Shown here: piece by piece, positions 1 to 50,412 of the stretch | Layout: every line of letters begins with the position of its first letter | How positions within the stretch are numbered: position 1 is the stretch's first letter | Assembly (NCBI RefSeq): GCF_026151205.1 | Contig: NC_087073.1 | Location: forward strand, 21,850,270 to 21,914,269 | Source: Bolinopsis microptera | Taxonomy: Eukaryota > Ctenophora > Tentaculata > Lobata > Bolinopsidae | Direction of reading: 5' to 3' | DNA length: 64,000 nucleotides | Translations under genes and position numbers: made by a program | The notes under the pieces: generated by a model | The model's input: only the letters and a program-made list of their open reading frames with translations | Told to the model about the DNA's origin: nothing | Database searches by the model: none

Positions 1-550
1 TGCAGTTCAGGTACTTTGTTTACTGAAACCCTACTTGTACAGTAGCGGGGGTCCTATTATTGCAGTTCAGGTACTTTGTTTACTGAAACCCTACTTGTAC
101 AGTAGCGGGGGTCCTATTATTGCAGTTCAGGTACTTTGTTTACTGAAACCCTACTTGTACAGTAGTGGGGGTCCTATTATTGCAGTTCAGGTACTTTGTT
201 TACTGAAACCCTACTTGTACAGTAGTGGGGGTCCTATTATTGCAGTTCAGGTACTTTGTTTACTGAAACCCAACTTGTACAGTAGCAGGGGTCCTATTAT
301 TGCAGTTCAGGTACTTTGTTTACTGAAACCCTACTTGTACAGTAGCGGGGGTCCTATTATTGCAGTTCAGGTACTTTGTTTACTGAAACCCTACTTGTAC
401 AGTAGTGGGGGTCCTATTATTGCAGTTCAGGTACTTTGTTTACTGAAACCCTACTTGTACAGTAGCGGGGGTCCTATTATTGCAGTTCAGGTACTTTGTT
501 TACTGAAACCCTACTTGTACAGTAGCGGGGGTCCTATTATTGCAGTTCAG
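1..550 (+). CDS. GLB1: GLB1-A, 3' end of the exon before the catalytic exon (partial, repeated)
   Basis: The codons GCA GTT CAG at 2-10 end an exon encoding GGPIIAVQ in human-like GLB1 context. They join in phase 0 to GTT GAA AAT GAG at 10349, giving AVQVENEYGS. The same exon end recurs at 70, 130 and so on to 550. If the first donor is used the protein is normal. If a later donor is used, each unit adds 20 residues without a frameshift. Which copy is used cannot be decided from sequence. The rest of the gene's 5' part is outside the window. Confidence 0.5.
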
Positions 551-625
551 GTACTTTGTTTACTTAACTGAAACCCTACTTGTACAGTATAGTCATATAG
601 TGGGGGTCCTATTATTGCAGTTCAG
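1..625 (+). repeat. Array 1: 60-bp tandem repeat of a GLB1-A exon end plus 5' splice site
   Basis: About ten copies of a 60-bp unit, nearly identical up to 550, then one degenerate copy ending at 625. Each unit reads in frame as YSSGGPIIAVQ followed by VLCLLKPYL, with no stop, because 60 is a multiple of three. The GGPIIAVQ part is the first half of the GH35 active-site signature (GGP-x-x-x-x-Q-x-E-N-E). The second half, VENEYG, starts at 10349. The sequence after the exon half, CAG|GTACTT, is a usable donor in every copy. The array is therefore a repeated exon end plus donor. The true exon body lies left of the window. A copy at about 564 picks up a TAA, which closes the frame. Confidence 0.9.
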
Positions 626-626
626 G

Positions 627-2339
627 CACACGGGTCACGGGTGCTAAATATCAAATACAGGTGCTAAATATCAAATAAATAATCATATAGTGAAGAAAAA
701 TGTGATAAGTGATAATGCAGCGACTTTCAATAGCATCCAGTGGCCACCGATATCATCGATATCAGTGGCCACTGGACAAAAGAGGGTGAATCTTGGCAAA
801 TGAGTAAGTGTAACTCGTCAAGCAGGAACATACTCCCTCAACAGATTGAAATTGAGGCACTTTATTCACGATTAGATATATTTAATTCCAGTTATAGTTA
901 GATGATATTATAGTTTGCAGGAATTTTAGCTTTTACACACATAACAATGTTGGAATGTTGTTTCAATACATTATACTCACGACCATCTCAACTAACCCTA
1001 ATCTTCCTCCCATTTAATTGCAAACTTTTCTAATTCTATAAGTTTATAACTTGAATTGTTAGGAAGCTCAGTGTAAGACATTAATCTTGTAAGTTATTAG
1101 TTGTGTTTAACTCAACATACGCGTAATTTATCCTGAGAGTGCTTTAAAAGCTACAAATATGATGAATTGTTCAGCCTAATTGCGGTGTTTTTTGTCTCCA
1201 AATTTGCCGCACTTTAAAAAAAAATAAGGCAAGAGCGAAATCGCACTATTTGCAAAATATTACCGCAGTGCAACCATGGTCAGCACATGAATTACAAGTG
1301 GCTAAAACGAATAGAAGATAATATGTAATAGGAGGTAAAAAGACATAGCTGTAAGTTATTTTGCAATGAAATACTATCAAACTTGAATATTTAGATTTGC
1401 AGTGAGACTAATGTAGAAAACCTAATCCCTATTACCGTTGTTAATCATGTCCTGTAGTTGTTAACATGGCGTGAATTTCTCTATATATCAGGTGATTTCT
1501 CTTTACCAGACCCAAAATGACGTGTCGGGATTATTAATACGGTAATACAGGTAATAAAGATAATAAAGATAATACGTTTAGATCCCAAAGTGGTGTCAAA
1601 AACGCAAAATAAATTAATGTGATTTTTGATTTAACAAACATTTAACGTGCTGCGGATAAATAAACAAGCAGTAGTATACTGTAGTATATACAGTATACAC
1701 TATATGCGCTTAGTCAATAAAGGCACCGTGATTGTTATAAAAAGGAGATGATGAAGCAAGTATTCAGGAACATATGCATGACACAAAGAAGAATGGTCGG
1801 TGGGCATTGGGACATAAATATTATATGTGTATATATACACTATAAAGTCAGTATTTAAGAATTTGTACAACAACTTTTCATTTATTGACCCAATTGTAGG
1901 CGACGAAAATAATTATCGAATTATTTTTCTTATAAGTTTAACAAATAGCTTTTAGTTATACATGATAAATCTCATGATGCAAATTCAGCAGGAGAAATTA
2001 TAAAACAAGCTACAAATTTATAGAGTACGGAAGTAGGTCCACTGCGTAACTCAAAGCAAAACAACAAAGCTTCACCAATAGTAAACTTGTTGCAGTGTAG
2101 TGTTCTAAACTTATAACTTTCTAAAGAAGTAGGAACACAGCTCCACTGTCTAAACATTGGTGTATTGTTTAGATTATTCGACATATAGAGCCTGTTAGTG
2201 TTATATTAGTGATTAGAGTTATTTATTGTTTACATAATCCGTCACACCATGTCTGAATAAATAAGCAATCAGGTCTAACTGATGTGATTAGTAACTGAAT
2301 CAGTACAAACAAGGGTAATCCCAAACTAACCAGTAACTA
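627..2339. other. Intronic sequence of GLB1-A, no gene recognised
   Basis: This AT-rich stretch lies between array 1 and array 2 and has no convincing ORF or RNA gene. The longest ORF (1972-2184, minus) resembles nothing I recognise and has low-complexity composition. The only structure I see is a 41-bp inverted repeat at 736-776. Confidence 0.6.
736..776. repeat. Perfect short inverted repeat (hairpin)
   Basis: The arms TCCAGTGGCCAC and GTGGCCACTGGA are exact reverse complements. They enclose two GATATC half-palindromes around a short centre. It could fold as a cruciform or RNA hairpin. No function is apparent. Confidence 0.8.
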
Positions 2340-2365
2340 AACCTCGTAGTCAGGGGTGTAGGAAG

Positions 2366-2391
2366 AGGGGGGGGGGGGGGGGGCAGGGGGG
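2366..2391. repeat. Poly-G run
   Basis: A run of about 20 G, a single C, then six more G lies just left of array 2. Such runs are length-unstable in assemblies. The surrounding GGGGTGTAGGAAG resembles the end of a DNA-transposon derivative, but I found no matching right end or target duplication. Confidence 0.7.
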
Positions 2392-2451
2392 CGTAGTCCC
2401 TGATCCCTCGATAGTCTATACCACAGTATACAGAAGTTAGCGAGAAAATAA

Positions 2452-5400
2452 TTCTTGAATGAGTACAGGAGTAACAGGAATATTGCAGGTTGGGAATGAG
2501 TACGGGAGTAACAGAAATATTGCAGGTTGAGAATGAGTACGGGAGTAACAGAAATATTGCAGGTTGAGAATGAGTAGGGGAGTAACAGGAATATTGCAGG
2601 TTGAGAATGAGTAGGGGAGTAACAGGAATATTGCAGGTTGGGAATGAGTACAGGAGTAACAGGAATATTGCAGGTTGAGAATGAGTAGGGGAGTAACAGG
2701 AATATTGCAGGTTGAGAATGAGTACGGGAGTAACAGAAATATTGCAGGCTGAGAATGAGTACGGGAGTAACAGGAATATTGCAGGTTGAGAATGAGTACG
2801 GGAGTAACAGAAATATTGCAGGCTGAGAATGAGTAGGGGAGTAACAGGAATATTGCAGGTTGAGAATGAGTACGGGAGTAACATGAATATTGCAGGTTGA
2901 GAATGAGTTCGGGAGTAACAGGAATATTGCAGGTTGAGAATGAGTACGGGAGTAACAGGAATATTGCAGGTTGAGAATGAGTTCGGGAGTAACAGGAATA
3001 TTGCAGGTTGAGAATGAGTACGGGAGTAACAGGAATATTGCAGGTTGAGAATGAGTTCGGGAGTAACAGGAATATTGCAGGTTGAGAATGAGTAGGGGAG
3101 TAACAGGAATATTGCAGGTTGAGAATGAGAACAGGAGTAACAGAAATATTGCAGGTTGAGAATGAGTACGGGAGTAACAGAAATATTGCAGGTTGAGAAT
3201 GAGTAGGGGAGTAACAGAAATATTGCAGGTTGAGAATGAGTACGGGAGTAACAGGAATATTGTAGGTTGAGAATGAGTAGGGGAGTAACAGGAATATTGC
3301 AGGTTGAGAATGAGTACGGGAGTAACAGGAATATTGCAGGTTGAGAATGAGTAGGGGAGTAACAGGAATATTGCAGGTTGAGAATGAGTACGGGAGTAAC
3401 AGGAATATTGCAGGTTGAGAATGAGTAGGGGAGTAACAGGAATATTGCAGGTTGAGAATGGGTAGGGGAGTAACAGGAATATTGCAGGTTGGGAATGAGT
3501 ACAGGAGTAACAGGAATATTGCAGGTTGAGAATGAGTAGGGGAGTAACAGGAATATTGCAGGTTGAGAATGAGTACGGGAGTAACAGGAATATTGCAGGT
3601 TGAGAATGAGTACGGGAGTAACAGGAATATTGCAGGTTGAGAATGAGTAGGGGAGTAACAGGAATATTGCAGGTTGAGAATGAGTACGGGAGTAACAGAA
3701 TATTGCAGGTTGAGAATGAGTACGGGGAGTAACAAGAATATTGCAGGTTGAGAATAAGTAGGGGAGTAACAGGAATATTGCAGGTTGAGAATGAGTAGGG
3801 GAGTAACAGGAATATTGCAGGTTGAGAATGAGTACAGGAGTAACAGGAATATTGCAGGTTGAGAATGAGTAGGGGAGTAACAGGAATATTGCAGGTTGAG
3901 AATGAGTACGGGAGTAACAGGAATATTGCAGGTTGAGAATGAGTACGGGAGTAACAGGAATATTGCAGGTTGAGAATGAGTAGGGGAGTAACAGGAATAT
4001 TGCAGGTTGAGAATGAGTACGGGAGTAACAGGAATATTGCAGGTTGAGAATGAGTACGGGAGTAACAAGAATATTGCAGGTTGAGAATGAGTACAGGAGT
4101 AACAGGAATATTGCAGGTTGAGAATGAGTACGCGAGTAACAGGAATATTGCAGGTTGAGAATGAGTACGGGAGTAACAGAAATATTGCAGGTTGAGAATG
4201 AGTACGGGAGTAACAGGAATATTGCAGGTTGAGAATGAGTACGGGAGTAACAGGAATATTGCAGGTTGAGAATGAGTACGGGAGTAACAGGAATATTGTA
4301 GGTTGAGAATGAGTACAGGAGTAACAGGAATATTGCAGGTTGAGAATGAGTAGGGGAGTAACAGGAATATTGCAGGTTGGGAATGAGTACGAAGTAACAG
4401 GAATATTGCAGGTTGGGAATGAGTACAGGAGTAACCGGAATATTGCAGGTTGAGAATGAGTACGGGAGTAACAAGAATATTGTAGGTTGAGAATGAGTAC
4501 AGGAGTAACAAGAATATTGCAGGTTGAGAATGAGTTCGGGAGTAACAAGAATATTGCAGGTTGAGAATGAGTACGGGAGTAACAGGAATATTGCAGGTTG
4601 AGAATGAGTACGGGAGTAACAGGAATATTGCAGGTTGAGAATGAGTAGGGGAGTAACAGGAATATTGCAGGTTGAGAATGAGTACGGGAGTAACAGGAAT
4701 ATTGCAGGTTGAGAATGAGTACGGGAGTAACAGGAATATTGCAGGTTGAGAATGAGTACGGGAGTAACAGGAATATTGCAGGTTGAGAATGAGTACGGGA
4801 GTAACAGGAATATTGCAGGTTGAGAATGAGTACGGAGTAACAGAATATTGCAGGTTGAGAATGAGTACGGGAGTAACAGGAATATTGCAGGTTGAGAATG
4901 AGTACAGGAGTAACAAGAATATTGCAGGTTGAGAATGAGTACGGGAGTAACAAGAATATTGCAGGTTGAGAATGAGTACGGGAGTAACAGGAATATTGCA
5001 GGTTGAGAATGAGTACGGGAGTAACAGGAATATTGCAGGTTGAGAATGAGTACGGGAGTAACAGGAATATTGCAGGTTGAGAATGAGTACGGGAGTAACA
5101 GGAATATTGCAGGTTGAGAATGAGTACGGGAGTAACAGGAATATTGCAGGTTGAGAATGAGTACGGGAGTAACAGGAATATTGCAGGTTGAGAATGAGTA
5201 CGGGAGTAACAGGAATATTGCAGGTTGAGAATGAGTACGGGAGTAACAAGAATATTGCAGGTTGAGAATGAGTACGGGAGTAACAGGAATATTGCAGGTT
5301 GAGAATGAGTACGGGAGTAACAGGAATATTGCAGGTTGAGAATGAGTACGGGGAGTAACAGGAATATTGCAGGTTGAGAATGAGTACGGGAGTAACAGGA

Positions 5401-8400
5401 ATATTGCAGGTTGAGTAACAGGAATATTGTAGGTTGAGAATGAGTACGGGAGTAACAGGAATATTGCAGGTTGAGAATGAGTACGGGAGTAACAGGAATA
5501 TTGCAGGTTGAGAATGAGTACGGGAGTAACAGGAATATTGCAGGTTGAGAATGAGTACGCGAGTAACAAGAATATTGCAGGTTGAGAATGAGTACGGGAG
5601 TAACAGGAATATTGCAGGTTGAGAATGAGTACGGGAGTAACAGGAATATTGCAGGTTGAGAATGAGTACGGGAGTAACAGGAATATTGCAGGTTGAGAAT
5701 GAGTACGGGAGTAACAGGAATATTGCAGGTTGAGAATGAGTACGGGAGTAACAGGAATATTGCAGGTTGAGAATGAGTACGGGAGTAACAGGAATATTGC
5801 AGGTTGAGAATGAGTACGGGAGTAACAGGAATATTGCAGGTTGAGAATGAGTACGGGAGTAACAGGAATATTGCAGGTTGAGAATGAGTACGGGAGTAAC
5901 AGGAATATTGCAGGTTGAGAATGAGTACGGGAGTAACAGGAATATTGCAGGTTGAGAATGAGTACGGGAGTAACAGGAATATTGCAGGTTGAGAATGAGT
6001 ACGGGAGTAACAGGAATATTGCAGGTTGAGAATGAGTACGGGAGTAACAGGAATATTGCAGGTTGAGAATGAGTACGGGAGTAACAGGAATATTGCAGGT
6101 TGAGAATGAGTACGGGAGTAACAGGAATATTGCAGGTTGAGAATGAGTACGGGAGTAACAGGAATATTGCAGGTTGAGAATGAGTACGGGAGTAACAGGA
6201 ATATTGCAGGTTGAGAATGAGTACGGGAGTAACAGGAATATTGCAGGTTGAGAATGAGTACGGGAGTAACAAGAATATTGCAGGTTGAGAATGAGTACGG
6301 GAGTAACAGGAATATTGCAGGTTGAGAATGAGTACGGGAGTAACAGGAATATTGCAGGTTGAGAATGAGTACGGGAGTAACAGGAATATTGCAGGTTGAG
6401 AATGAGTACGGGAGTAACAGGAATATTGCAGGTTGAGAATGAGTACGGGAGTAACAGGAATATTGCAGGTTGAGAATGAGTACGGGAGTAACAGGAATAT
6501 TGCAGGTTGAGAATGAGTACGGGAGTAACAGGAATATTGCAGGTTGAGAATGAGTACGGGAGTAACAGGAATATTGCAGGTTGAGAATGAGTACGGGAGT
6601 AACAGGAATATTGCAGGTTGAGAATGAGTACGGGAGTAACAGGAATATTGCAGGTTGAGAATGAGTACGGGAGTAACAGGAATATTGCAGGTTGAGAATG
6701 AGTACGGGAGTAACAGGAATATTGCAGGTTGAGAATGAGTACGGGAGTAACAGGAATATTGCAGGTTGAGAATGAGTACGGGAGTAACAGGAATATTGCA
6801 GGTTGAGAATGAGTACGGGAGTAACAGGAATATTGCAGGTTGAGAATGAGTACGGGAGTAACAGGAATATTGCAGGTTGAGAATGAGTACGGAGTAACAG
6901 GAATATTGCAGGTTGAGAATGAGTACGGGAGTAACAGGAATATTGCAGGTTGAGAATGAGTACAGGAGTAACAGGAATATTGCAGGTTGAGAATGAGTAG
7001 GGAGTAACAGGAATATTGCAGGTTGAGAATGAGTACGGGAGTAACAGGAATATTGCAGGTTGAGAATGAGTACGGGAGTAACAGGAATATTGCAGGTTGA
7101 GAATGAGTACGGGAGTAACAGGAATATTGCAGGTTGAGAATGAGTACGGGAGTAACAGGAATATTGCAGGTTGAGAATGAGTACGGGAGTAACAGGAATA
7201 TTGCAGGTTGAGAATGAGTACGGGAGTAACAGGAATATTGCAGGTTGAGAATGAGTACGGGAGTAACAGGAATATTGCAGGTTGAGAATGAGTACGGGAG
7301 TAACAAGAATATTGCAGGTTGAGAATGAGTACGGGAGTAACAGGAATATTGCAGGTTGAGAATGAGTACGGGAGTAACAGGAATATTGCAGGTTGAGAAT
7401 GAGTACGGGAGTAACAGGAATATTGCAGGTTGAGAATGAGTACGGGAGTAACAGGAATATTGCAGGTTGAGAATGAGTAGGGGAGTAACAGGAATATTGC
7501 AGGTTGAGAATGAGTACGGGAGTAACAGGAATATTGCAGGTTGAGAATGAGTACGGGAGTAACAGGAATATTGCAGGTTGAGAATGAGTACGGGAGTAAC
7601 AGGAATATTGCAGGTTGAGAATGAGTACGGGAGTAACAAGAATATTGCAGGTTGAGAATGAGTACGGGAGTAACAGGAATATTGCAGGTTGAGAATGAGT
7701 ACGGGAGTAACAGGAATATTGCAGGTTGAGAATGAGTACGGGAGTAACAGGAATATTGCAGGTTGAGAATGAGTACGGGAGTAACAGGAATATTGCAGGT
7801 TGAGAATGAGTACGGGAGTAACAGGAATATTGCAGGTTGAGAATGAGTACGGGAGTAACAGGAATATTGCAGGTTGAGAATGAGTACGGGAGTAACAGGA
7901 ATATTGCAGGTTGAGAATGAGTACGGGAGTAACAGGAATATTGCAGGTTGAGAATGAGTACGGGAGTAACAGGAATATTGCAGGTTGAGAATGAGTACGG
8001 GAGTAACAGGAATATTGCAGGTTGAGAATGAGTACGGGAGTAACAGGAATATTGCAGGTTGAGAATGAGTACGGGAGTAACAGGAATATTGCAGGTTGAG
8101 AATGAGTACGGGAGTAACAGGAATATTGCAGGTTGAGAATGAGTACGGGAGTAACAGGAATATTGCAGGTTGAGAATGAGTACGGGAGTAACAGGAATAT
8201 TGCAGGTTGAGAATGAGTACGGGAGTAACAGGAATATTGCAGGTTGAGAATGAGTACGGGAGTAACAGGAATATTGCAGGTTGAGAATGAGTACGGGAGT
8301 AACAGGAATATTGCAGGTTGAGAATGAGTACGGGAGTAACAGGAATATTGCAGGTTGAGAATGAGTACGGGAGTAACAGGAATATTGCAGGTTGAGAATG

Positions 8401-10348
8401 AGTACGGGAGTAACAGGAATATTGCAGGTTGAGAATGAGTACGGGAGTAACAGGAATATTGCAGGTTGAGAATGAGTTCGGGAGTAACAGGAATATTGCA
8501 GGTTGAGAATGAGTACGGGAGTAACAGGAATATTGCAGGTTGAGAATGAGTACGGGAGTAACAGGAATATTGCAGGTTGAGAATGAGTACGGGAGTAACA
8601 GGAATATTGCAGGTTGAGAATGAGTACGGGAGTAACAGGAATATTGCAGGTTGAGAATGAGTACGGGAGTAACAGGAATATTGCAGGTTGAGAATGAGTA
8701 CGGGAGTAACAGGAATATTGCAGGTTGAGAATGAGTACGGGAGTAACAGGAATATTGCAGGTTGAGAATGAGTACGGGAGTAACAGGAATATTGCAGGTT
8801 GAGAATGAGTACGGGAGTAACAGGAATATTGCAGGTTGAGAATGAGTACGGGAGTAACAGGAATATTGCAGGTTGAGAATGAGTACGGGAGTAACAGAAT
8901 ATTGCAGGTTGAGAATGAGTACGGGAGTAACAGGAATATTGCAGGTTGAGAATGAGTACGGGAGTAACAGGAATATTGCAGGTTGAGAATGAGTACGGGA
9001 GTAACAGGAATATTGCAGGTTGAGAATGAGTACGGGAGTAACAGGAATATTGCAGGTTGAGAATGAGTACGGGAGTAACAGGAATATTGCAGGTTGAGAA
9101 TGAGTACGGGAGTAACAGGAATATTGCAGGTTGAGAATGAGTACGGGAGTAACAGGAATATTGCAGGTTGAGAATGAGTACGGGAGTAACAGGAATATTG
9201 CAGGTTGAGAATGAGTACGGGAGTAACAGGAATATTGCAGGTTGAGAATGAGTACGGGAGTAACAGGAATATTGCAGGTTGAGAATGAGTACGGGAGTAA
9301 CAGGAATATTGCAGGTTGAGAATGAGTACGGGAGTAACAGGAATATTGCAGGTTGAGAATGAGTACGGGAGTAACAGAATATTGCAGGTTGAGAATGAGT
9401 ACGGGAGTAACAGGAATATTGCAGGTTGAGAATGAGTACGGGAGTAACAGGAATATTGCAGGTTGAGAATGAGTACGGGAGTAACAAGAATATTGCAGGT
9501 TGAGAATGAGTACGGGAGTAACAGGAATATTGCAGGTTGAGAATGAGTACGGGAGTAACAGGAATATTGCAGGTTGAGAATGAGTACGGGAGTAACAGGA
9601 ATATTGCAGGTTGAGAATGAGTACGGGAGTAACAAGAATATTGCAGGTTGAGAATGAGTACGGGAGTAACAGGAATATTGCAGGTTGAGAATGAGTACGG
9701 GAGTAACAGGAATATTGCAGGTTGAGAATGAGTACGGGAGTAACATGAATATTGCAGGTTGAGAATGAGTACGGGAGTAACAGGAATATTGCAGGTTGAG
9801 AATGAGTACGGGAGTAACAGGAATATTGCAGGTTGAGAATGAGTTCGGGAGTAACAAGAATATTGCAGGTTGAGAATGAGTACGGGAGTAACAGAATATT
9901 GCAGGTTGAGAATGAGTACGGGAGTAACAGGAATATTGCAGGTTGAGAATGAGTACGGGAGTAACAGGAATATTGCAGGTTGAGAATGAGTACGGGAGTA
10001 ACAGAAATATTGCAGGTTGAGAATGAGTTCGGGAGTAACAGGAATATTGCAGGTTGAGAATGAGTACGGGAGTAACAGGAATATTGTAGGTTGAGAATGA
10101 TTACGCGAGTAACAGGAATATTGCAGGCTGAGAATGAGTACAGGAGTAACAGGAATATTGTAGGTTGAGAATGATTACGCGAGTAACAGGAATATTGCAG
10201 GTTGAGAATGAGTTCGGGAGTAACAGGAATATTGCAGGTTGAGAATGAGTAGGGGAGTAACAGAAATATTGCAGGTTGAGAATGATTACGGGAGTAACAG
10301 GAATATTGAAGGTTGAGAATGAGTACGCGAGTAACAGGAATATTGCAG
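2452..10348 (+). repeat. Array 2: 37-bp tandem repeat of 3' splice site plus start of the catalytic exon (about 213 copies)
   Basis: The unit is GTTGAGAATGAGTACGGG, then AGTAACAGGAATATTGCAG. The second half ends in the acceptor AG (with a TAAC branch-point-like motif) and the first half is the exon start coding VENEYG. The last copy, at 10349, continues into exon sequence. A unit of 37 bp shifts frame by one per copy. Splicing into an upstream copy would read VENEYGSNRNIAG and then stop at TGA in the next unit. Copies in about 5700-9500 are nearly uniform, while both edges carry many variants (TAGGGG, TTCGGG, AACAGAAA). The three huge minus-strand ORFs across the array are a by-product of the unit lacking stops on that strand. 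Confidence 0.97.
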
Positions 10349-10476
10349 GTTGAAAATGAGTACGGGAGTAACAAACCCTGCGATGCAGGTCACTTTGACT
10401 ACATGACCCAGTTGAGAGACATCTACAGAGAACACCTGGGTGAAGAGATAGTCCTGCTCACCGTGGACGGAGATAG
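10349..10476 (+). CDS. GLB1: GLB1-A exon with the GH35 acid/base motif ENEYG
   Basis: The exon starts after ATTGCAG and reads VENEYGSNKPCDAGHFDY, continuing to LLTVDGD and ending in AG before the donor GTATAC. Its length of 128 bp leaves phase 2. The second Glu of ENE (codon 10358-10360) corresponds to the acid/base Glu188 of human GLB1. The match to human VENEYGSYFACDFDY and VLFTTDGA is clear. This final copy differs from the array consensus (GAA rather than GAG at codon 2), and it is the only copy that continues into the rest of the gene. Confidence 0.93.
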
Positions 10477-10556
10477 GTATACATTATACATTATACATTA
10501 TACATTATACATTATACATTATACATTATACATTATACACGATACACTATACATAA
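10477..10556 (+). repeat. 9-bp microsatellite directly at the donor of the ENEYG exon
   Basis: Seven to eight copies of ATTATACAT begin inside the donor (AG|GTATACATTATACAT). The intron is short (10477-10607). It is another repeat seeded at an exon border of this gene. Confidence 0.85.
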
Positions 10557-10607
10557 TAGGTTCAGGTACATTGTATTATACTGGTTTATGATGTCCACTA
10601 ATTTCAG

Positions 10608-10785
10608 CTACAAGCTGGCTCAGTGTGGTAATATAGAGGGGCTTTACTCCACACTTAACTTCGGGTCAGGAGGTAATATTACCAGCAAGTTCCTGGTACA
10701 GAGGAAACAGGAACCCAGAGGTCCTTTTGTGTGCAGCGCCTTCTTCAGCGGCTGGCTCGATCATTGGGGGCACAAGTTTGCTAAG
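10608..10785 (+). CDS. GLB1: GLB1-A exon containing the nucleophile region, with Glu replaced by Ala
   Basis: The exon begins after TTTCAG and completes the codon split from the previous exon (GAT AG|C TAC, residues DSYKLAQCG). It ends KFAK before the donor GTAATT. Length is 178 bp and the end phase is 0. It contains GLYSTLNFGSGGNIT and GPFVCSAFFSGWLDHWG. Human GLB1 has NSEFYTGWLDHWG here, where Glu268 is the catalytic nucleophile. In this gene the codon at 10738-10740 is GCC (Ala). Changing GAA or GAG to GCC needs two base changes, so one sequencing error does not explain it. The neighbouring GWLDHWG is intact, so the alignment is unambiguous. Confidence 0.93.
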
Positions 10786-10957: not shown

Positions 10958-11071
10958 ACAGGAGCAGAACACCTCGCACAGGGGTTACAGAACCTACTGG
11001 AGTTTAACGGGAAAACAGCCAGTGTCAGCATGTACATGTTCCACGGGGGCACCAACTTCGCTTACATGCAG
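10958..11071 (+). CDS. GLB1: GLB1-A exon, GGTNFAY region
   Basis: The exon starts after CCTGCAG and reads TGAEHLAQGLQNLLEFNG, then KTASVSMYMFHGGTNFAYMQ. It ends before the donor GTTACC. It is 114 bp, phase 0 on both sides. It matches human ASVNLYMFIGGTNFAYW, the substrate-pocket segment that follows the nucleophile. Confidence 0.92.
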
Positions 11072-11195
11072 GTTACCAAGGTTACTTATAGGTTACTATG
11101 GTTACTTATAGGTTACCAAGGTTACATACAAGAGTTACAAGAGTTGCAAGAGTTGCAAGATTTACAAGAGTTACAATAGTTACAAGAGTTACAAA
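11072..11195 (+). repeat. Short degenerate repeats at the donor (GGTTAC and CAAGAGTTA units)
   Basis: The donor CAG|GTTACC is followed by alternating copies of GGTTACCAAG and GGTTACTTATA. A run of CAAGAGTTA-type units comes next. The first unit overlaps the donor itself. Confidence 0.75.
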
Positions 11196-12721: not shown

Positions 12722-12729
12722 GACATTCT

Positions 12730-13796: not shown

Positions 13797-13807
13797 ATCT
13801 ATAGCCT

Positions 13808-14553
13808 AATTAATCTTATGGTTCAGGGAAGAAAAGGAGACTAGAAAGTAGAATAACGCCACCACTACAGACACCCCCCTCTCCTAATTAATGTATTGGT
13901 TCAGGGAGGAAGAGGAGATTGGAATAACGCCACCACTACAGACTACCCCCCCTCCTAATTAATGTATTGGTTCAGGGAGGAAGAGGAGACTGGAATAACG
14001 CCACCACTACAGACTACCCCCCTCCTAATTAATGTAATGGTTCAGGGAGGAAGAGGAGACTGGAATAACGCCATCACTACAGAACCCCCCCTCCTAATTA
14101 ATGTAATGGTTCAGGGAGGAAGAGGAGACTGGAATAACGCCACCACTACAGACTACCCCCCCCCCCCCTCCTAATTAATGTAATGGTTCAGGGAGGAAGA
14201 GGAGACTGGAATAACGCCACCACTACAGAACCCCCCCTCCTGATTAATGTAATGGTTCAGGGAGGAAGAGGAGACTGGAATAACGCCACCACTACAGACT
14301 ACCCCCCCCCCCTCCTAATTAATGTAATGGTTCAGGGAGGAAGAGGAGACTGGAATAACGCCATCACTACAGAACCCCCCCTCATAATTAATGTAATAGT
14401 CCAGGGAGGAAGAGGAGATTGGAATAACGCCACCACTACAGACTACCCCCCCTCCTAATTAATGTAATGGTTCAGGGAGGAAGAGGAGACTGGAATAACG
14501 CCACCACTACAGACTACCCCCCCCCCCCCCTCCTAATTAATGTAATGGTTCAG
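13808..14553 (+). repeat. Array 6: about 70-bp tandem repeat of 3' splice site plus exon start (about 11 copies)
   Basis: Each unit has CTAATTAATGTAATGGTTCAG (branch-like TAAT plus acceptor), split here as CTAATTAATG and TAATGGTTCAG. GGAGGAAGAGGAGACTGG and the ATTTDYP codons follow, then a C-run of variable length. The last copy continues into the exon at 14554. Read from the acceptor, upstream copies give GGRGDWNNATTTDYP. Depending on C-run length they then meet a TAA or stay open. The first copy (13816) is the most diverged. Confidence 0.93.
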
Positions 14554-14696
14554 GGAGGAAGAGGAGACTGGAATAACGCCACCACTACAGACTACCCCCG
14601 ACTGTGGGGTAAGATGACTAGTTATGACTACGACGCACCCCTCTCAGAAGCCGGGGACACTACTTGGAAATATCAGCTCCTGCGCCAAGTCATCGG
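14554..14696 (+). CDS. GLB1: GLB1-A exon, [13 protein letters not shown] region
   Basis: The exon reads GGRGDWNNATTTDYPRLW, then [17 protein letters not shown], and ends LLRQVIG before the donor GTATAA. It is 143 bp and leaves phase 2. It matches human [20 protein letters not shown], the end of the catalytic TIM barrel. The previous exon ends FAYMQ and the junction is in phase. Confidence 0.92.
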
Positions 14697-15473: not shown

Positions 15474-15619
15474 GTCTACAAACCCTTGTGATAACATGAC
15501 ATAATCGGGTAGAGAATTTCCTGCTTCTAGTCATATCATTACTATTACATGTATTAGATCATTGCTTATAATTCATAAGTCCTCAACGAAATCCCTACGA
15601 TTTCTTTTGAACAAGAAAT

Positions 15620-16850
15620 GCGGCCGCTACCTGGCTCACCGATTAGGTAAGTAAATCCGGCCGCTACCTGGCTCGCGGCCAAGGTAGGTAAATCCGGCCG
15701 CTACCTGGCTCACCAAGGTAAGTAAATCTGGCTGCTACCTGGCTCACCAAGGTAGGTAAATCCGGCCGCTACCTGGCTCACCAAGGTAAGTAAATCCGGC
15801 CGCTACCTGGCTCACCAAGGTAATTGTAAATCCGGCCGCTACCTTGCTCGCGGCCAAGGTAATTGTAAATCTGGCCGCTACCTGGCTCGCGGCCAAGGTA
15901 AGTAAATCTGGCTGCTACCTGGCTCGCGGCCAAGGTAAGTAAATCTGGCTGCTACCTGGCTCGCGGCCAAGGTAATTGTAAATCCGGCCGCTACCTGGCT
16001 CGCGGCCAAGGTAATTGTAAATCCTGCCGCTACCTGGCTCGCGGCCAAGGTAAGTAAATCCGGCTGCTACCTGGCTCGCGGCCAAGGTAAGTAAATCTTG
16101 CTGCTACCTGGCTCACCAAGGTAAGTAAATCCTGCCGCTACCTTGCTCACCAAGGTAATTGTAAATCCTGCCGCTACCTTGCTCACCAAGGTAATTGTAA
16201 ATCTGGCTGCTACCTGGCTCACCAAGGTAAGTAAATCCTGCCGCTACCTTGCTCACCAAGGTAATTGTAAATCTTGCTGCTACCTGGCTCACCAAGGTAA
16301 GTAAATCCTGCCGCTACCTTGCTCACCAAGGTAATTGTAAATCCTGCCGCTACCTTGCTCACCAAGGTAATTGTAAATCTGGCTGCTACCTGGCTCACCA
16401 AGGTAAGTAAATCCTGCCGCTACCTTGCTCACCAAGGTAATTGTAAATCTGGCTGCTACCTGGCTCACCAAGGTAAGTAAATCCTGCCGCTACCTTGCTC
16501 ACCAAGGTAAGTAAATCCGGCCGCTACCTGGCTCACCAAGGTAATTGTAAATCCTGCCGCTACCTTGCTCGCGGCCAAGGTAAGTAAATCCGGCCGCTAC
16601 CTGTCTCGCGGCCAAGGTAATTCAAATTGTAAATCCGGCCGCTACCTGGCTCACCAAGGTAAGTAAATCCGGCCGCTACCTTGCTCACCAAGGTAAGTAA
16701 ATCCGGCCGCTACCTTGCTCACCAAGGTAAGTAAATCCGGCCGCTACCTGGCTCACCAAGGTAAGTAAATCCGGCCGCTACCTGGCTCACCAAGGTAAGT
16801 AAATCCGGCCGCTACCTGGCTCACCAAGGTAAGTAAATCCGGCCGCTACC
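15620..16850 (+). repeat. Array 7, left part: 34-bp satellite with a consensus 5' splice site
   Basis: The unit is CCAAGGTAAGTAAATC followed by CGGCCGCTACCTGGCTCA. Variants replace GTAAGTAAAT with GTAATTGTAAAT, or CTCACC with CTCGCGGCC. The core AAG|GTAAGT is a near-perfect metazoan donor. The array is interrupted at 16851 by a retrotransposon and resumes at 20660. Confidence 0.96.
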
Positions 16851-26949: not shown

Positions 26950-27102
26950 TTAGGATATAATTAATGCTCATAATTACAGGATTAAGATATAATTAATGCT
27001 CATAATTACAGGATTAGGATATAATTAACGCTCATAATTACAGGATTAGGATATAATTAATGCTCATAATTACAGCTACTAACTACTTCTCAGTAACTAC
27101 AG

Positions 27103-27262
27103 CAAGACACGCCCGATACCTGACAACACTACTAAACATCACGTTGGACCGGTACAATTGGAGGAGGTTATTAACATATTTGACATGGTGAGACTGCTGC
27201 AGTACGACCCTAACTGCGTGATTCAAAGCGAGTTACCTCTTCCAATGGAACAGATGGGACAG
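27103..27262 (+). CDS. GLB1: GLB1-A exon, linker to the first beta domain
   Basis: The exon follows a textbook acceptor: TACTAAC branch point at 27078-27084 and then AACTACAG. It reads KTRPIPDNTTKHHVGPVQ, then LEEVINIFDMVRLL, and ends PLPMEQMGQ before the donor GTACTG. It is 160 bp, entry phase 2 (GG|C), exit phase 0. It matches the human segment from IPPSTPKFAYGKVTLEKL to LYPLTFIQVKQ. Confidence 0.9.
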
Positions 27263-27448
27263 GTACTGGTTACTTTTAGTTACTTTTAGTTACTTTTAGT
27301 TACTTTTAGTTACTTTTAGTTACTTTTAGTTACTTTTAGTTACTTTTAGTTACTTTTAGTTACTTTTAGTTACTTTTAGTTACTTTTAGTTACTTTTAGT
27401 TACTTTTGGTTACTTTTAGTTACTTTTAGTTACTTTTAGTTACTTTTA
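27263..27448 (+). repeat. 10-bp tandem repeat starting at the donor of the preceding exon (about 18 copies)
   Basis: The unit TTACTTTTAG starts 8 bases after the exon end (CAG|GTACTGGTTACTTTTAG). It runs almost without change to 27448. Confidence 0.95.
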
Positions 27449-35400: not shown

Positions 35401-37900
35401 TGGTTACCGTGTAAATATTAACAGTTGCCATGGTTACCGTGTAAATATTAACAGTTGCCATGGTTACTGTGTAAATATTAACAGTTGCCATGGTTACCGT
35501 GTAAATATTAACAGTTGCCATGGTTACTGTGTAAATATTAACAGTTGCCATGGTTACTGTGTAAATATTAACAGTTGCCATGGTTACTGTGTAAATATTA
35601 ACAGTTGCCATGGTTACCGTGTAAATATTAACACTTGCCATGGTTACTGTGTAAATATTAACACTTGCCATGGTTTCCGTGTAAATATTAACAGTTGCCA
35701 TGGTTACTGTGTAAATATTAACAGTTGCCATGGTTACCGTGTAAATATTAACAGTTGCCATGGTTACTGTGTAAATATTAACAGTTGCCATGGTTACCGT
35801 GTAAATATTAACAGTTGCCATGGTTACCGTGTAAATATTAACAGTTGCCATGGTTACTGTGTAAATATTAACAGTTGCCATGGTTACCGTGTAAATATTA
35901 ACAGTTGCCATGGTTACTGTGTAAATATTAACAGTTGCCATGGTTACCGTGTAAATATTAACACTTGCCATGGTTACCGTGTAAATATTAACAGTTGCCA
36001 TGGTTACTGTGTAAATATTAACAGTTGCCATGGTTACCGTGTAAATATTAACAGTTGCCATGGTTACCGTGTAAATATTAACAGTTGCCATGGTTACTGT
36101 GTAAATATTAACAGTTGCCATGGTTACCGTGTAAATATTAACAGTTGCCATGATTACAGCGTAAATATTAACACTTGCCATGATTACAGCGTAAATATTA
36201 ACAGTTGCCATGGTTACCGTGTAAATATTAACACTTGCCATGGTTACCGTGTAAATATTAACAGTTGCCATGGTTACCGTGTAAATATTAACAGTTGCCA
36301 TGGTTACCGTGTAAATATTAACACTTGCCATGGTTACCGTGTAAATATTAACAGTTGCCATGGTTACCGTGTAAATATTAACAGTTGCCATGGTTACTGT
36401 GTAAATATTAACACTTGCCATGGTTACCGTGTAAATATTAACAGTTGCCATGATTACAGCGTAAATATTAACAGTTGCCATGATTACAGCGTAAATATTA
36501 ACAGTTGCCATGGTTACCGTGTAAATATTAACAGTTGCCATGGTTACTGTGTAAATATTAACACTTGCCATGGTTACCGTGTAAATATTAACAGTTGCCA
36601 TGGTTACCGTGTAAATATTAACAGTTGCCATGATTACAGCGTAAATATTAACAGTTGCCATGGTTACCGTGTAAATATTAACAGTTGCCATGGTTACTGT
36701 GTAAATATTAACACTTGCCATGGTTACCGTGTAAATATTAACACTTGCCATGGTTACCGTGTAAATATTAACAGTTGCCATGGTTACCGTGTAAATATTA
36801 ACAGTTGCCATGGTTACTGTGTAAATATTAACACTTGCCATGGTTACCGTGTAAATATTAACACTTGCCATGGTTACCGTGTAAACATTAACAGTTGCCA
36901 TGGTTACTGTGTAAATATTAACAGTTGCCACGATTACCGTGTAAATTTTAACAGTTGCCATGGTTACCGTGTAAATATTAACAGTTGCCATGGTTACCGT
37001 GTAAATATTAACAGTTGCCATGGTTACCGTGTAAATATTAACAGTTGCCATGGTTACCGTGTAAATATTAACAGTTGCCATGGTTACCGTGTAAATATTA
37101 ACAGTTGCCATGGTTACCGTGTAAATATTAACAGTTGCCATGGTTACCGTGTAAATATTAACAGTTGCCATGGTTACCGTGTAAATATTGACAGTTGCCA
37201 TGGTTACCGTGTAAATATTAACACTTGCCATGGTTACCGTGTAAATATTAACAGTTGCCATGGTTACCGTGTAAATATTAACAGTTGCCATGGTTACCGT
37301 GTAAATATTAACAGTTGCCATGGTTACCGTGTAAATATTAACAGTTGCCATGGTTACCGTGTAAATATTAACACTTGCCATGGTTACCGTGTAAATATTA
37401 ACAGTTGCCATGGTTACCGTGTAAATATTAACAGTTGCCATGTGCCATGATTACCGCGTAAATATTAACAGTTGCCACGATTACCGTGTAAATTTTAACA
37501 GTTGCCATGGTTACCGTGTAAATATTAACAGTTGCCATGGTTACCGTGTAAATATTAACAGTTGCCATGGTTACCGTGTAAATATTAACAGTTGCCATGG
37601 TTACCGTGTAAATATTAACAGTTGCCATGGTTACCGTGTAAATATTAACAGTTGCCATGGTTACCGTGTAAATATTAACAGCTGCCATGGTTACCGTGTA
37701 AATATTTACAGTTGCCATGGTTACCGTGTAAATATTAACAGTTGCCATGGTTACCGTGTAAATATTAACAGTTGCCATGGTTACTGTGTAAATATTAACA
37801 GTTGCCATGGTTACCGTGTAAATATTAACAGTTGCCATGGTTACCGTGTAAATATTAACAGTTGCCATGGTTACCGTGTAAATATTAACAGTTGCCATGG
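29452..37900 (+). repeat. 30-bp satellite carrying an RFX X-box in every unit (about 200 clean plus about 77 degraded copies)
   Basis: The unit is AACAGTTGCCATGG, TTACCGTGTAAATATT, with no stop in two frames on each strand, which produces spurious long ORFs. The reverse complement contains GTAACCATGGCAAC, matching the X-box consensus GTNRCC-N(0-3)-RGYAAC. The last copy ends TTGCCATGGTAACTTACAG, so the array runs to within a few bases of the acceptor of the exon at 37911. Clean blocks are 29452-31190 and 33600-37890. Between them the copies are heavily degraded. Sub-variants (ACACTTG, TTACTG, TGATTACAGC) cluster, a sign of block duplication. Confidence 0.97.
31190..33590. repeat. Degraded zone of the 30-bp satellite
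   Basis: Units are still visible by GCCATGG-like cores every 30 or so bases, but indels and G/T-rich substitutions are frequent. Three patches of A- and C-rich sequence interrupt it (about 31570-31720 with a run of about 26 C, 32215-32300 and 33020-33060). The boundaries with clean array are sharp, which fits unpolished long-read consensus as well as true decay. Confidence 0.75.
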
Positions 37901-37910
37901 TAACTTACAG

Positions 37911-38548: not shown

Positions 38549-41500
38549 TTCTGTCCCAGGTATTGGCCACTAGCAGGTCCCCAGAAGAGACACTACTAAC
38601 AAAGTACTGTCCCAGGTATTGGCCACTAGCAGGTCCCCAGAAGAGACACCACTAACAAAGTACTGTCCCAGGTATTGGCCACTAGCAGGTCCCCAGAAGA
38701 GACACCACTAACAAAGTACTGTCCCAGGTATTGGCCACTAGCAGGTCCCCAGAAGAGACACTACTAACAAAGTACTGTCCCAGGTATTGGCCACTAGCAG
38801 GTCCCCAGAAGAGACACCACTAACAAAGTACTGTCCCAGGTATTGGCCACTAGCAGGTCCCCAGAAGAGACACCACTAACAAAGTACTGTCCCAGGTATT
38901 GGCCACTAGCAGGTCCCCAGAAGAGACACCACTAACAAAGTACTGTCCCAGGTATTGGCCACTAGCAGGTCCCCAGAAGAGACACCACTAACAAAGTACT
39001 GTCCCAGGTATTGGCCACTAGCAGGTCCCCAGAAGAGACACTACTAACAAAGTACTGTCCCAGGTATTGGCCACTAGCAGGTCCCCAGAAGAGACACCAC
39101 TAACAAAGTACTGTCCCAGGTATTGGCCACTAGCAGGTCCCCAGAAGAGACACCACTAACAAAGTACTGTCCCAGGTATTGGCCACTAGCAGGTCCCCAG
39201 AAGAGACACTACTAACAAAGTACTGTCCCAGGTATTGGCCACTAGCAGGTCCCCAGAAGAGACACTACTAACAAAGTACTGTCCCAGGTATTGGCCACTA
39301 GCAGGTCCCCAGAAGAGACACTACTAACAAAGTACTGTCCCAGGTATTGGCCACTAGCAGGTCCCCAGAAGAGACACTACTAACAAAGTACTGTCCCAGG
39401 TATTGGCCACTAGCAGGTCCCCAGAAGAGACACCACTAACAAAGTACTGTCCCAGGTATTGGCCACTAGCAGGTCCCCAGAAGAGACACTACTAACAAAG
39501 TACTGTCCCAGGTATTGGCCACTAGCAGGTCCCCAGAAGAGACACCACTAACAAAGTACTGTCCCAGGTATTGGCCACTAGCAGGTCCCCAGAAGAGACA
39601 CTACTAACAAAGTACTGTCCCAGGTATTGGCCACTAGCAGGTCCCCAGAAGAGACACCACTAACAAAGTACTGTCCCAGGTATTGGCCACTAGCAGGTCC
39701 CCAGAAGAGACACTACTAACAAAGTACTGTCCCAGGTATTGGCCACTAGCAGGTCCCCAGAAGAGACACTACTAACAAAGTACTGTCCCAGGTATTGGCC
39801 ACTAGCAGGTCCCCAGAAGAGACACTACTAACAAAGTACTGTCCCAGGTATTGGCCACTAGCAGGTCCCCAGAAGAGACACCACTAACAAAGTACTGTCC
39901 CAGGTATTGGCCACTAGCAGGTCCCCAGAAGAGACACTACTAACAAAGTACTGTCCCAGGTATTGGCCACTAGCAGGTCCCCAGAAGAGACACTACTAAC
40001 AAAGTACTGTCCCAGGTATTGCTCACTAGCAGGTCCCCAGAAGAGACACTACTAACAAAGTACTGTCCCAGGTATTGGCCACTAGCAGGTCCCCAGAAGA
40101 GACACTACTAACAAAGTACTGTCCCAGGTATTGGCCACTAGCAGGTCCCCAGAAGAGACACCACTAACAAAGTACTGTCCCAGGTATTGGCCACTAGCAG
40201 GTCCCCAGAAGAGACACTACTAACAAAGTACTGTCCCAGGTATTGGCCACTAGCAGGTCCCCAGAAGAGACACTACTAACAAAGTACTGTCCCAGGTATT
40301 GCTCACTAGCAGGTCCCCAGAAGAGACACCACTAACAAAGTACTGTCCCAGGTATTGGCCACTAGCAGGTCCCCAGAAGAGACACCACTAACAAAGTACT
40401 GTCCCAGGTATTGGCCACTAGCAGGTCCCCAGAAGAGACACCACTAACAAAGTTCTGTCCCAGGTATTGGCCACTAGCAGGTCCCCAGAAGAGACACCAC
40501 TAACAAAGTTCTGTCCCAGGTATTGGCCACTAGCAGGTCCCCAGAAGAGACACTACTAACAAAGTACTGTCCCAGGTATTGCTCACTAGCAGGTCCCCAG
40601 AAGAGACACTACTAACAAAGTACTGTCCCAGGTATTGGCCACTAGCAGGTCCCCAGAAGAGACACTACTAACAAAGTACTGTCCCAGGTATTGGCCACTA
40701 GCAGGTCCCCAGAAGAGACACTACTAACAAAGTACTGTCCCAGGTATTGGCCACTAGCAGGTCCCCAGAAGAGACACTACTAACAAAGTACTGTCCCAGG
40801 TATTGGCCACTAGCAGGTCCCCAGAAGAGACACTACTAACAAAGTACTGTCCCAGGTATTGGCCACTAGCAGGTCCCCAGAAGAGACACCACTAACAAAG
40901 TACTGTCCCAGGTATTGGCCACTAGCAGGTCCCCAGAAGAGACACTACTAACAAAGTACTGTCCCAGGTATTGGCCACTAGCAGGTCCCCAGAAGAGACA
41001 CCACTAACAAAGTACTGTCCCAGGTATTGGCCACTAGCAGGTCCCCAGAAGAGACAACACTAACAAAGTACTGTCCCAGGTATTGGCCACTAGCAGGTCC
41101 CCAGAAGAGACACTACTAACAAAGTACTGTCCCAGGTATTGGCCACTAGCAGGTCCCCAGAAGAGACAACACTAACAAAGTACTGTCCCAGGTATTGGCC
41201 ACTAGCAGGTCCCCAGAAGAGACAACACTAACAAAGTACTGTCCCAGGTATTGGCCACTAGCAGGTCCCCAGAAGAGACACCACTAACAAAGTACTGTCT
41301 CAGGTATTGGCCACTAGCAGGTCCCCAGAAGAGACACCAGTAACAAAGTACTGTCCCAGGTATTGGCCACTAGCAGGTCCCCAGAAGAGACACTACTAAC
41401 AAAGTACTGTCCCAGGTATTGGCCACTAGCAGGTCCCCAGAAGAGACAACACTAACAAAGTACTGTCCCAGGTATTGGCCACTAGCAGGTCCCCAGAAGA

Positions 41501-42591
41501 GACACTACTAACAAAGTACTGTCCCAGGTATTGGCCACTAGCAGGTCCCCAGAAGAGACACTACTAACAAAGTACTGTCCCAGGTATTGGCCACTAGCAG
41601 GTCCCCAGAAGAGACACTACTAACAAAGTACTGTCCCAGGTATTGGCCACTAGCAGGTCCCCAGAAGAGACAACACTAACAAAGTACTGTCCCAGGTATT
41701 GGCCACTAGCAGGTCCCCAGAAGAGACACCACTAACAAAGTACTGTCCCAGGTATTGGCCACTAGCAGGTCCCCAGAAGAGACACCACTAACAAAGTACT
41801 GTCCCAGGTATTGGCCACTAGCAGGTCCCCAGAAGAGACACCACTAACAAAGTACTGTCCCAGGTATTGGCCACTAGCAGGTCCCCAGAAGAGACACTAC
41901 TAACAAAGTACTGTCCCAGGTATTGGCCACTAGCAGGTCCCCAGAAGAGACACTACTAACAAAGTACTGTCCCAGGTATTGGCCACTAGCAGGTCCCCAG
42001 AAGAGACACTACTAACAAAGTACTGTCCCAGGTATTGGCCACTAGCAGGTCCCCAGAAGAGACACCACTAACAAAGTACTGTCCCAGGTATTGGCCACTA
42101 GCAGGTCCCCAGAAGAGACACCACTAACAAAGTACTGTCCCAGGTATTGGCCACTAGCAGGTCCCCAGAAGAGACACTACTAACAAAGTACTGTCCCAGG
42201 TATTGGCCACTAGCAGGTCCCCAGAAGAGACACTACTAACAAAGTACTGTCCCAGGTATTGGCCACTAGCAGGTCCCCAGAAGAGACACCACTAACAAAG
42301 TACTGTCCCAGGTATTGGCCACTAGCAGGTCCCCAGAAGAGACACTACTAACAAAGTACTGTCCCAGGTATTGGCCACTAGCAGGTCCCCAGAAGAGACA
42401 CCACTAACAAAGTACTGTCCCAGGTATTGGCCACTAGCAGGTCCCCAGAAGAGACACTACTAACAAAGTACTGTCCCAGGTATTGGCCACTAGCAGGTCC
42501 CCAGAAGAGACACCACTAACAAAGTACTGTCCCAGGTATTGGCCACTAGCAGGTCCCCAGAAGAGACACCACTAACAAAGTACTGTCCCAG
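38549..42591 (+). repeat. 56-bp tandem repeat of branch point, 3' splice site and start of the last GLB1-A exon (about 72 copies)
   Basis: Each unit contains CACTACTAACAAAGTACTG (TACTAAC branch point), TCCCAG|G (acceptor) and TATTGGCCACTAGCAGG with CCCCAGAAGAGACAC (exon start, YWPLAGPQKRH). In every copy but the last, the exon frame runs into CACTACTAA or CACCACTAA, a stop that overlaps the branch point of the next unit. Only the copy starting at 42592 continues into the terminal exon. Variants are few (CTACTAAC, CCACTAAC, ACACTAAC, GCTCAC, TTCTG). Confidence 0.97.
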
Positions 42592-42769
42592 GTATTGGCC
42601 ACTAGCAGGTCCCCAGAAGAGACACTACTGCCCCAGTCCAGGTCCCACCAGAGAACACATGAAGTCCACCTTCCTTCTGTTCGAGTTGGAGCGAGCGCCG
42701 ACTAACTTGACGATTGTTCTCACTGATACTCCACTCGTTGATGGTTCCTATGATAGTTCTCAGCAGTGA
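42592..42769 (+). CDS. GLB1: GLB1-A terminal exon
   Basis: It completes the Arg codon (AG|G), then reads YWPLAGPQKRHYCPSPGP, TREHMKSTFLLFELERAP, and ends with TDTPLVDGSYDSSQQ and a TGA at 42767-42769. It matches the human C-terminus GRYWPARGPQLTLFVPQ and ITVLELEWAP. The acceptor is the last of about 72 near-identical ones. Using any earlier one would truncate the protein 12 residues into this exon. Confidence 0.93.
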
Positions 42770-49525: not shown

Positions 49526-49957
49526 AATACTGCTTACTCAGTGTCTGGCAGACCGCCAACACTGTTAATCATCCTTGTTTGTACATTTAGTTTGATAATC
49601 TTGTTATATTAAATAACTTATCAATTATTAATGTTAGTTCCTCTATGCGATATGTATATTTACTTTTAATAATTGTAAGTGTGAACTCGAGTAAAAAGAT
49701 CTATTTCTTCTTTATGATTTTATTCAGATTTTTTGATTTGATATTTGTATGTTGTTTAATGTTTATCTTCGATATATTATTAAAATAGTGTTGTCATATT
49801 TTTTCTCCTTTAACATAATCCGCTAACTTATAATCTATAAATTATCTTATTATTATTTCTTAAGTTATTATGTACGGGTTGTTGAGTTTAAATATACCTT
49901 GCTACACACACATGTTACAGAGTCACGTGACATGTTACATAACCCCTGTTGTTTAGG
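49526..49957 (+). other. HEX3 3' flank and GLB1-B promoter region
   Basis: The first 100 bp match the HEX1/HEX2 3' flanks. Unique AT-rich sequence follows to 49957. The only recognisable regulatory site is the CLEAR motif at 49922. The TTTAG directly before the G-ATG could be a trans-splice acceptor or simply leader. Nothing in the window decides this. Confidence 0.6.
49922..49931. promoter_or_regulatory. CLEAR element (TFEB/MITF-type site) upstream of GLB1-B
   Basis: GTCACGTGAC is a perfect match to the palindromic CLEAR consensus described for lysosomal genes. It is framed by direct repeats of CATGTTACA. It ends 26 bp before the ATG. A partial second site, GTCACGTGG, lies at 49962-49970 within the first codons. 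Confidence 0.6.
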
Positions 49958-50109
49958 ATGAGTCACGTGGTGTGTACTCTCCTGTTAATACTCTTGTTGG
50001 TCTCCACCTCGCTAACTAAGAGATCCTTTGTGGTGGATCACAAAGAGAACTGCTTCAGAAAGGACGGGCTCAAGTTCCAGTTCATATCCGGCTCTATGCA
50101 CTATTACAG
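49958..50109 (+). CDS. GLB1: GLB1-B exon 1: signal peptide and start of GH35 domain
   Basis: It starts MSHVVCTLLLILLLVSTS (signal peptide), then SFVVDHKENCFRKDGLKF, QFISGSMHYYR. Human GLB1 has the corresponding FRYISGSIHYSRVPRFYW context. It is 152 bp and leaves phase 2 before the donor GTAGTG. The exon end plus donor is duplicated 40 bp downstream. The gene is in the same orientation as the others, 432 bp after HEX3. Confidence 0.93.
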
Positions 50110-50169
50110 GTAGTGCTATGTAACCATAGTAACCATAGCACTATTACAGGTAGTGCTATGTAACCATAG
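50098..50169 (+). repeat. Two-copy 40-bp duplication across the GLB1-B exon 1 end and donor
   Basis: GCACTATTACAG|GTAGTGCT and ATGTAACCATAG occur at 50098-50129 and again at 50138-50169. The second copy recreates the last 11 exon bases and a complete donor. Using it would keep the frame through the first copy only until TAG in GTAGTG context; the first donor gives the normal protein. Confidence 0.93.
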
Positions 50170-50343
50170 CTACCATATACACGGACAAATACTTATCATG
50201 AATCCTTTCGGGCGTTCATTTTAATGTCCGTTCACGCAATGTCTGGTCGAATAACGTCCGATAAGGAAGTGGTTTGTTCCGCAAGTGCAATGTTTATTAT
50301 AGTTCAATTAGTAGTTGTCAGATTATAAATGAGTTTTCCTCAG

Positions 50344-50412
50344 GATACCAAAACCTTATTGGAAGGACAGATTACTAAAGCTAAAAGGGGCTGGATTTAA
50401 CACCGTTCAAAC
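50344..50412 (+). CDS. GLB1: GLB1-B exon 2
   Basis: After TTTCCTCAG it completes the Arg codon and reads [17 protein letters not shown], then FNTVQ plus AC, before the strong donor GTAAGT. It is 69 bp. It matches the conserved human [27 protein letters not shown]. The following exon, with the rest of the catalytic domain, lies outside the window. Confidence 0.92.

Follow-up and report, generated by a model that had tools for sequence, protein, structure and literature searches.

We analysed a 64,000-nucleotide stretch of the genome of the ctenophore Bolinopsis microptera (the window; C2:21850270-21914269, on contig NC_087073.1 of an assembly of 264,652,675 bases in 232 sequences), which carries on its forward strand the genes GLB1-A and GLB1-B with three GH20 (HEX) genes between them, and in which several minisatellites have repeat units that contain an exon edge together with its splice site. 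The B. microptera genome is described as assembled from PacBio reads with wtdbg and scaffolded with Hi-C (PMC10232365); the continuous long read (CLR) type of these data was inferred, and the sizes of the longest arrays are taken from this one long-read assembly. Arrays were called with Tandem Repeats Finder (TRF), and junctions were read from the sequence and partly checked by spliced alignment, several exon ends in the window being set by eye. An array was called by TRF at every place in the window that an earlier sequence-only reading had named.

One GLB1-A intron has both of its ends multiplied. Its donor lies in a 60-bp array of 97 copies (49 exon plus 11 intron bases per unit), which starts at C2:21845035, 5,235 bp upstream of the window, and whose downstream end occupies 1..589 of the window. 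At the opposite end of the same intron, the acceptor lies in a 37-bp array of 214 copies (2457..10373; 12 intron plus 25 exon bases per unit), the last acceptor of which leads into the exon at 10349..10476, placed by spliced alignment and starting VENEYGSNKP. When the first donor is joined to the last acceptor, the result is KWYSKLLPTLKPYLYSSGGPIIAVQ/VENEYGSNKPCD, which reads ...GGPIIAVQ/VENEYGSN... and is continuous with mammalian GLB1 (beta-galactosidase; E value 3.5e-99). The predicted outermost sites of this intron, the best studied here, restore the conserved GLB1 peptide.

Two further GLB1-A arrays span acceptors. The first (69 bp, 11.5 copies, 13805..14599) has 23 intron and 46 exon bases per unit and runs into the exon beginning GGRGDWNNATTTDYPRLWGKMTSYDYD at 14554..14696, the start of which was tabulated and the 3' end set by eye, automatic alignment having misplaced this exon. 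The second (56 bp, 73 copies, 38551..42629) has 18 intron and 38 exon bases per unit, with the exon starting at 42592; its units carry TACTAAC or CACTAAC, which we take to resemble a branch point. TRF and junction reading thus confirmed the four large GLB1-A arrays that the sequence-only reading had described as carrying an exon edge and its splice site, and AGGT occurs in three of the four large units, as it had stated. It was also right about a small array across a GLB1-B junction, which has a 40-bp unit spanning the donor, two copies (50098..50177) and an exon end at 50109; the neighbouring copy of this gene, B1, has 18 copies. Past the window, GLB1-B carries 35-bp and 45-bp acceptor arrays, and one of its introns (C2:21936880-21937375) is wholly made of the 45-bp acceptor-spanning array from the first intron base. 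The alternative that this array, in B2, is a repeated whole mini-intron was ruled out by the reading frame.

The copies of the region differ widely in repeat number (47.9 versus 97.1, 138 versus 73, 18 versus 2 and 46 versus 1,231 copies), and three junction arrays recur in separate gene copies. The last of these differences concerns a 19-bp intronic array of about 1,231 copies (50486..64000, continuing to C2:21924172), which at 23 kb takes up nearly all of the second GLB1-B intron, after the second exon (50344..50412, both ends by eye), and which has 46 copies over 874 bp in B1. Between the copies, long colinear stretches of 4.2, 2.7 and 3.2 kb show similarities of 98.5, 96.2 and 93.1%, the remaining aligned stretches being lower at 75-95%. 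For the origin of the arrays, local duplication with subsequent fast turnover is the best fit. In copy 1 the 37-bp array ends at a 100-N assembly gap (C2:21788179-21788278), past which the exons that follow this array in copy 2 were not seen; with a gap in this place, the copies could equally be uncollapsed haplotypes or tandem duplicates.

GLB1 paralogues elsewhere showed the same kind of structure at other junctions than those used in GLB1-A and GLB1-B. In the paralogue C11a, one exon is flanked by a 50-bp acceptor array (16 copies) and a 56-bp donor array (36 copies), and the paralogue C11b has a 73-bp donor array of five copies; in the paralogues on C1 and C8 the domain lies in one open frame. 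Three introns could be compared between paralogues (GLB1-A residue 224, phase 0; C11a residue 146, phase 2; C11a residue 186, phase 0), and all three were found at the same position and phase in a paralogue without a junction-spanning array. The two C11 paralogues do carry arrays within the intron at residue 224, but these are unrelated and end 3-5 bp short of the acceptor. Since these introns are shared without a spanning array, the comparison suggests that the junctions predate their arrays, although a paralogue could have lost an array.

Individual full-length units match their consensus at 97-99%, the few variants that they share being dispersed over the array, and in copy A2 similarity does not fall off as distance along the array grows. 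Extra changes occur in the final units of the 37-bp array, and the 60-bp array is fragmented at its intronic end, whereas the end of the 56-bp array shows neither. Strand skew is not alike among the arrays of the window. At the breaks where the duplicated segments were seeded, we noted by eye microhomology of AGT in the sample locus L036, AGACG in the C11 73-bp array and about 10 bp in the myosin locus L027; the breaks of L057 and L061 have a microhomology of only 0-1 base. Fold-back, which had been suggested as a common cause, was rejected in that role: z-scores against shuffles for 11 of 21 junction units were -0.22, -0.76, -0.17, 2.29, -4.16, -4.58, 1.35, 1.08, -2.34, 1.35 and -1.33, only three of them below -2, and three intronic units gave -2.26, -0.89 and 1.69. 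A family-wide or selfish process, also suggested, found no support here. The same structure was found in five other gene families, and a search with the four GLB1-A units, which passes over common words, placed all of the matches listed of 301 on C2 at 21.78-21.89 Mb, within the GLB1 cluster.

The number of arrays at junctions exceeds what chance would produce. In the window, 4 of 13 arrays (period at least 16; 11 exons) span a junction against 0.31 expected (P 1.8e-4), and counting the array at the window edge raises this to five (P 2e-5). Altogether we tabulated 21 distinct arrays with a junction inside the unit (25 rows minus 4 repeats of the same array), 10 of them in four GLB1-family genes and 11 in kinesin, myosin, GH20, sulfatase and AMP-binding genes. 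Nine span donors and 12 span acceptors, one including only 3 exon bases, and in 21 of 21 the junction's GT or AG lies inside the unit.

For a random sample, 86 exons were drawn from a pool of 118 typed matches (to kinesin, AMP-binding, GH20 and sulfatase, and those to myosin that lay outside the sequences already analysed), and TRF was run on 85 of them with 550 bases taken per side. An array counted as junction-spanning when 6 or more bases on both sides of the matched exon end fell inside it, such ends being profile ends rather than proven junctions, which affects data and null alike. The null placed one unit of equal length at random, with arrays collapsed to one unit and wholly exonic positions excluded. 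Over all 85 loci, 10 of 43 arrays with a period of at least 15 and at least 1.9 copies spanned an exon end (2.42 expected), as did 7 of 14 with a period of at least 20 and at least 5 copies (0.95 expected). After removal of L039 (paralogous) and L040 (the far end of an array already counted), the corrected figures were 9 of 39 at the looser cut, against 1.75 under the plain and 1.92 under the GC-matched null, and 7 of 13 at the stricter cut, against 0.90 and 1.05 (P 1e-5 or below). Junctions are favoured over plain intron roughly five- to eightfold. The claim of the sequence-only reading that chance would not suffice was borne out both in the window and in this independent random sample.

Splice motifs were recognized by eye in the donor arrays L036, L054, L061, L064 and L041 and the acceptor arrays L066, L038/L039 and L057. 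In the sample, L077 is weak (2.1 copies), and L036 has 2 copies. An acceptor array at L041 (3 exon bases) and an array at L080, whose exon lies past the fetched piece, were found by eye outside the test. Of 170 matched exon ends, 9 thus carry a junction-spanning array, two of these (L038 and L039) being probably one event. In a post hoc split of the sample, junction arrays made up 8 of 17 arrays with a period of at least 30 and 1 of 22 below 30.

Other GLB1-A arrays lie near junctions or within introns. Among the arrays that had been proposed to start close to donors, a 7-bp array (10478..10558) begins at the second intron base, ahead of the exons at 10608..10785 and 10958..11071 (both from spliced alignment, the latter ending ...FAYMQ), and a 10-bp array (27269..27448) begins at intron base 7 after an exon that by eye ends at 27262; for the array assigned to 50413, in contrast, TRF puts the start 30-74 bp inside the intron. 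The one placed at 11072 in fact begins at 11070 (20 bp, 2.8 copies, 11070..11125) and takes in only the last two exon bases, AG. A 30-bp array of 275 copies (29454..37901), said to end at 37900 next to an acceptor, is real and stops 9 bp before the acceptor read by eye between 37910 and 37911. There are also a four-copy 32-bp intronic array (26944..27075), upstream of an acceptor read by eye, and a 34-bp mid-intron array in two blocks (15616..16851 and, by TRF, 20660..24508), the units of the first containing the donor-like AAGGTAAGT, with no junction recognized there. Ordinary intronic minisatellites, which are abundant here, likewise fill introns, but their unit holds no junction. Palindromic 10-bp runs (CGCTAGATGA, TAGCGCTAGA and variants), unlike the other arrays, were seen in two GLB1-A introns (window 12016-12970 and C2:21839611-21842689).

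The three HEX genes (43990-44943, 46215-47168 and 48431-49384) were recognized by profile match, one open frame in each matching positions 1-347 of the 348-position GH20 profile. The sequence-only reading had contrasted them with GLB1. The contrast is weak, since one open frame holds the whole catalytic domain in each gene and leaves it without internal junctions; our comparison covered this domain. The neighbouring copy of the region has two GH20 matches, one of them partial.

The closest known counterparts are the amphioxus mirages, tandem units across a 5' or 3' intron boundary in which the splice signal is repeated, with BflGb6 and Adh3 among the genes named (PMC3087553, PMC3902484). In the passages that describe them, regular splicing is said to be undisturbed, the BflGb6 mirage has 6 and 3 units with a number that differs between haplotypes (PMC3087553, PMC3902484), and the mechanism is called unclear (PMC3087553). 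The 21 ctenophore arrays resemble mirages, as far as these passages go, in spanning the boundary, in occurring at donors and acceptors and in having near-identical units. Unlike mirages, which are presented there as having few copies in single genes of one lineage, they belong to a ctenophore, reach 214 copies, occupy both ends of one intron and several introns per gene, and have been measured for enrichment over random seeds in other gene families. Zhuo et al. (2007) reportedly dealt, to judge by the title, with introns derived from tandem arrays in human genes. In the available text of the Hormiphora genome paper, TRF assigns 13% of the genome to tandem repeats and the word 'minisatellite' is absent, and among the matches listed from the open-licence literature we found no ctenophore report of junction-spanning minisatellites. 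The kind is thus known from amphioxus; what appears new, within the open-licence literature searched, is the phylum, the scale and the measured enrichment. The sequence-only reading, which knew of no description of hundreds of copies, did not name mirages as the closest precedent.

Starting from what was established directly, namely the anatomy of the arrays, the preserved coding sequence of the best-studied intron, the enrichment in the sample, the near-identity of units and the copy-number differences, we propose that these are mirage-type minisatellites in a ctenophore, that is, splice-neutral duplications of junctions that were later amplified, and we give this explanation a probability of about 0.7. 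A short tandem duplication, in some cases with a few bases of microhomology at the break, would arise over an existing exon-intron junction, and the exon-adjacent copy would keep a complete splice site. The outermost donor would then be spliced to the last acceptor, giving a normal mRNA and hiding the extra copies from selection, while unequal exchange or slippage would amplify and homogenize the array to tens or hundreds of copies. From the sequences we infer that splicing would use the outermost sites, as well as growth by exchange or slippage. All 11 acceptor arrays with a simple unit (the composite GH20 array omitted) keep at least 12 intron bases, where 8.3 arrays would be predicted to do so (post hoc, P 0.04). 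A requirement for a functional outermost copy would have this effect.

Several points weigh against this explanation. Plain neutrality predicts that seeds internal to introns do equally well and does not give the enrichment; invisibility in the mRNA accounts for the tolerance of the arrays and not for their excess at junctions over intron. Assembly error or the presence of two haplotypes may underlie part of the copy-number difference. Finally, seven myosin genes of compact size were analysed whole; among their 104 predicted introns, not all of them genuine, 3 of 34 arrays with a period of at least 15 lay at a predicted exon end: L027 is clear, the exon end in L020 is probably misplaced, the array starting at the donor, and L026 lies in a poorly aligned end. 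These genes had been picked to fit pieces below 10 kb, which biases them against long arrays, and the random exon sample was therefore made. Because they hold only one array with a period of at least 20 and at least 5 copies, they say little about high-copy arrays, yet they lower the overall frequency. L020 also has two neighbouring hits (2613-2804 and 2856-3086) to one and the same region of the myosin head profile, possibly a tandem exon duplication.

The enrichment could be supplied by an addition to the splice-neutral explanation, in which junctions are true hot spots of tandem duplication through breaks or pausing at exon borders, or at U1-bound or R-loop borders; we consider this possible, with the odds somewhat against it. 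The enrichment does remain after GC matching, junction arrays are concentrated among the long-period arrays of the sample, and six of nine donor arrays have units that reach 3-11 intron bases beyond the exon and stop shortly after the 5' splice site (2.2 arrays expected; post hoc, P 0.007). However, selection for an intact first 5' splice site together with microhomology could give the same cluster. The donor-unit ends and the long-period class both fit junction-linked duplication and partly fit selection for an intact outermost site.

It is unlikely that the repeated sites are themselves favoured, for robust splicing or for the stepwise removal of long introns by recursive splicing at AG/GT units. 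The presence of GT or AG in every unit agrees with this idea, as does the frequency of AG/GT, which is found in 6 of 10 acceptor arrays and in 16 of 62 hand-picked acceptor exon starts (P 0.04, post hoc), although the list of 62, from spliced alignments, includes one array acceptor. GT or AG was also less variable than the rest of the unit in five of six arrays counted, but the positions that vary are few, some of the arrays are copies of one another, and the trend reverses in the sixth, the 56-bp array of A1 (4.5 versus 2.9% mismatch). Moreover, the TACTAAC motif of the 56-bp units varies more than the rest (7 versus 0.4% in A2), and the inner acceptors of the 37-bp array would shift the frame if used.

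Very improbable, in our estimate, is the birth of these introns from duplicated AGGT-bearing exon segments (the Rogers model), a known relative of which the sequence-only reading was aware. Tandem duplication of AGGT or splice-signal segments has been described in potato RdRp, ATP2A1 and fission yeast, the last with multi-copy AGGT duplications and introns across them (PMC4974935), and duplicated segments of this kind, with AGGT in many units, are common to both systems as far as that account describes them. Here, however, the units hold intron ends besides exon, and the segment straddles a junction that the paralogue also has in the three comparable introns, which disfavours intron gain unless an array was lost there. 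Least probable of all is that the assembler expanded or stitched the repeats: wtdbg was used on long PacBio reads (PMC10232365), an N gap adjoins one array, and reads of this type make it difficult to size very long arrays such as the one of 23 kb, but several arrays (L036, L061, L066, L057 and L027) are below 1 kb, whole in the fetched pieces and reachable by single long reads, the pattern holds in 21 arrays, and three junction arrays recur in separate gene copies.

A broader claim, which we put forward tentatively and would not bet on, is that throughout the genome of this animal long-period minisatellites arise mainly at splice junctions, with repeated sites at several percent of junctions, owing either to DNA made prone by transcription or splicing or to favoured redundancy. 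At the practical level, junction arrays are places where the gene models and array lengths of such assemblies may fail. The results extend a lancelet curiosity of a few genes to another phylum and, by random sample, towards genome scale. They raise testable questions on how the spliceosome chooses among hundreds of near-identical sites and on how introns grow, and the enrichment beyond plain neutrality makes exon-intron borders testable as mutational hot spots.

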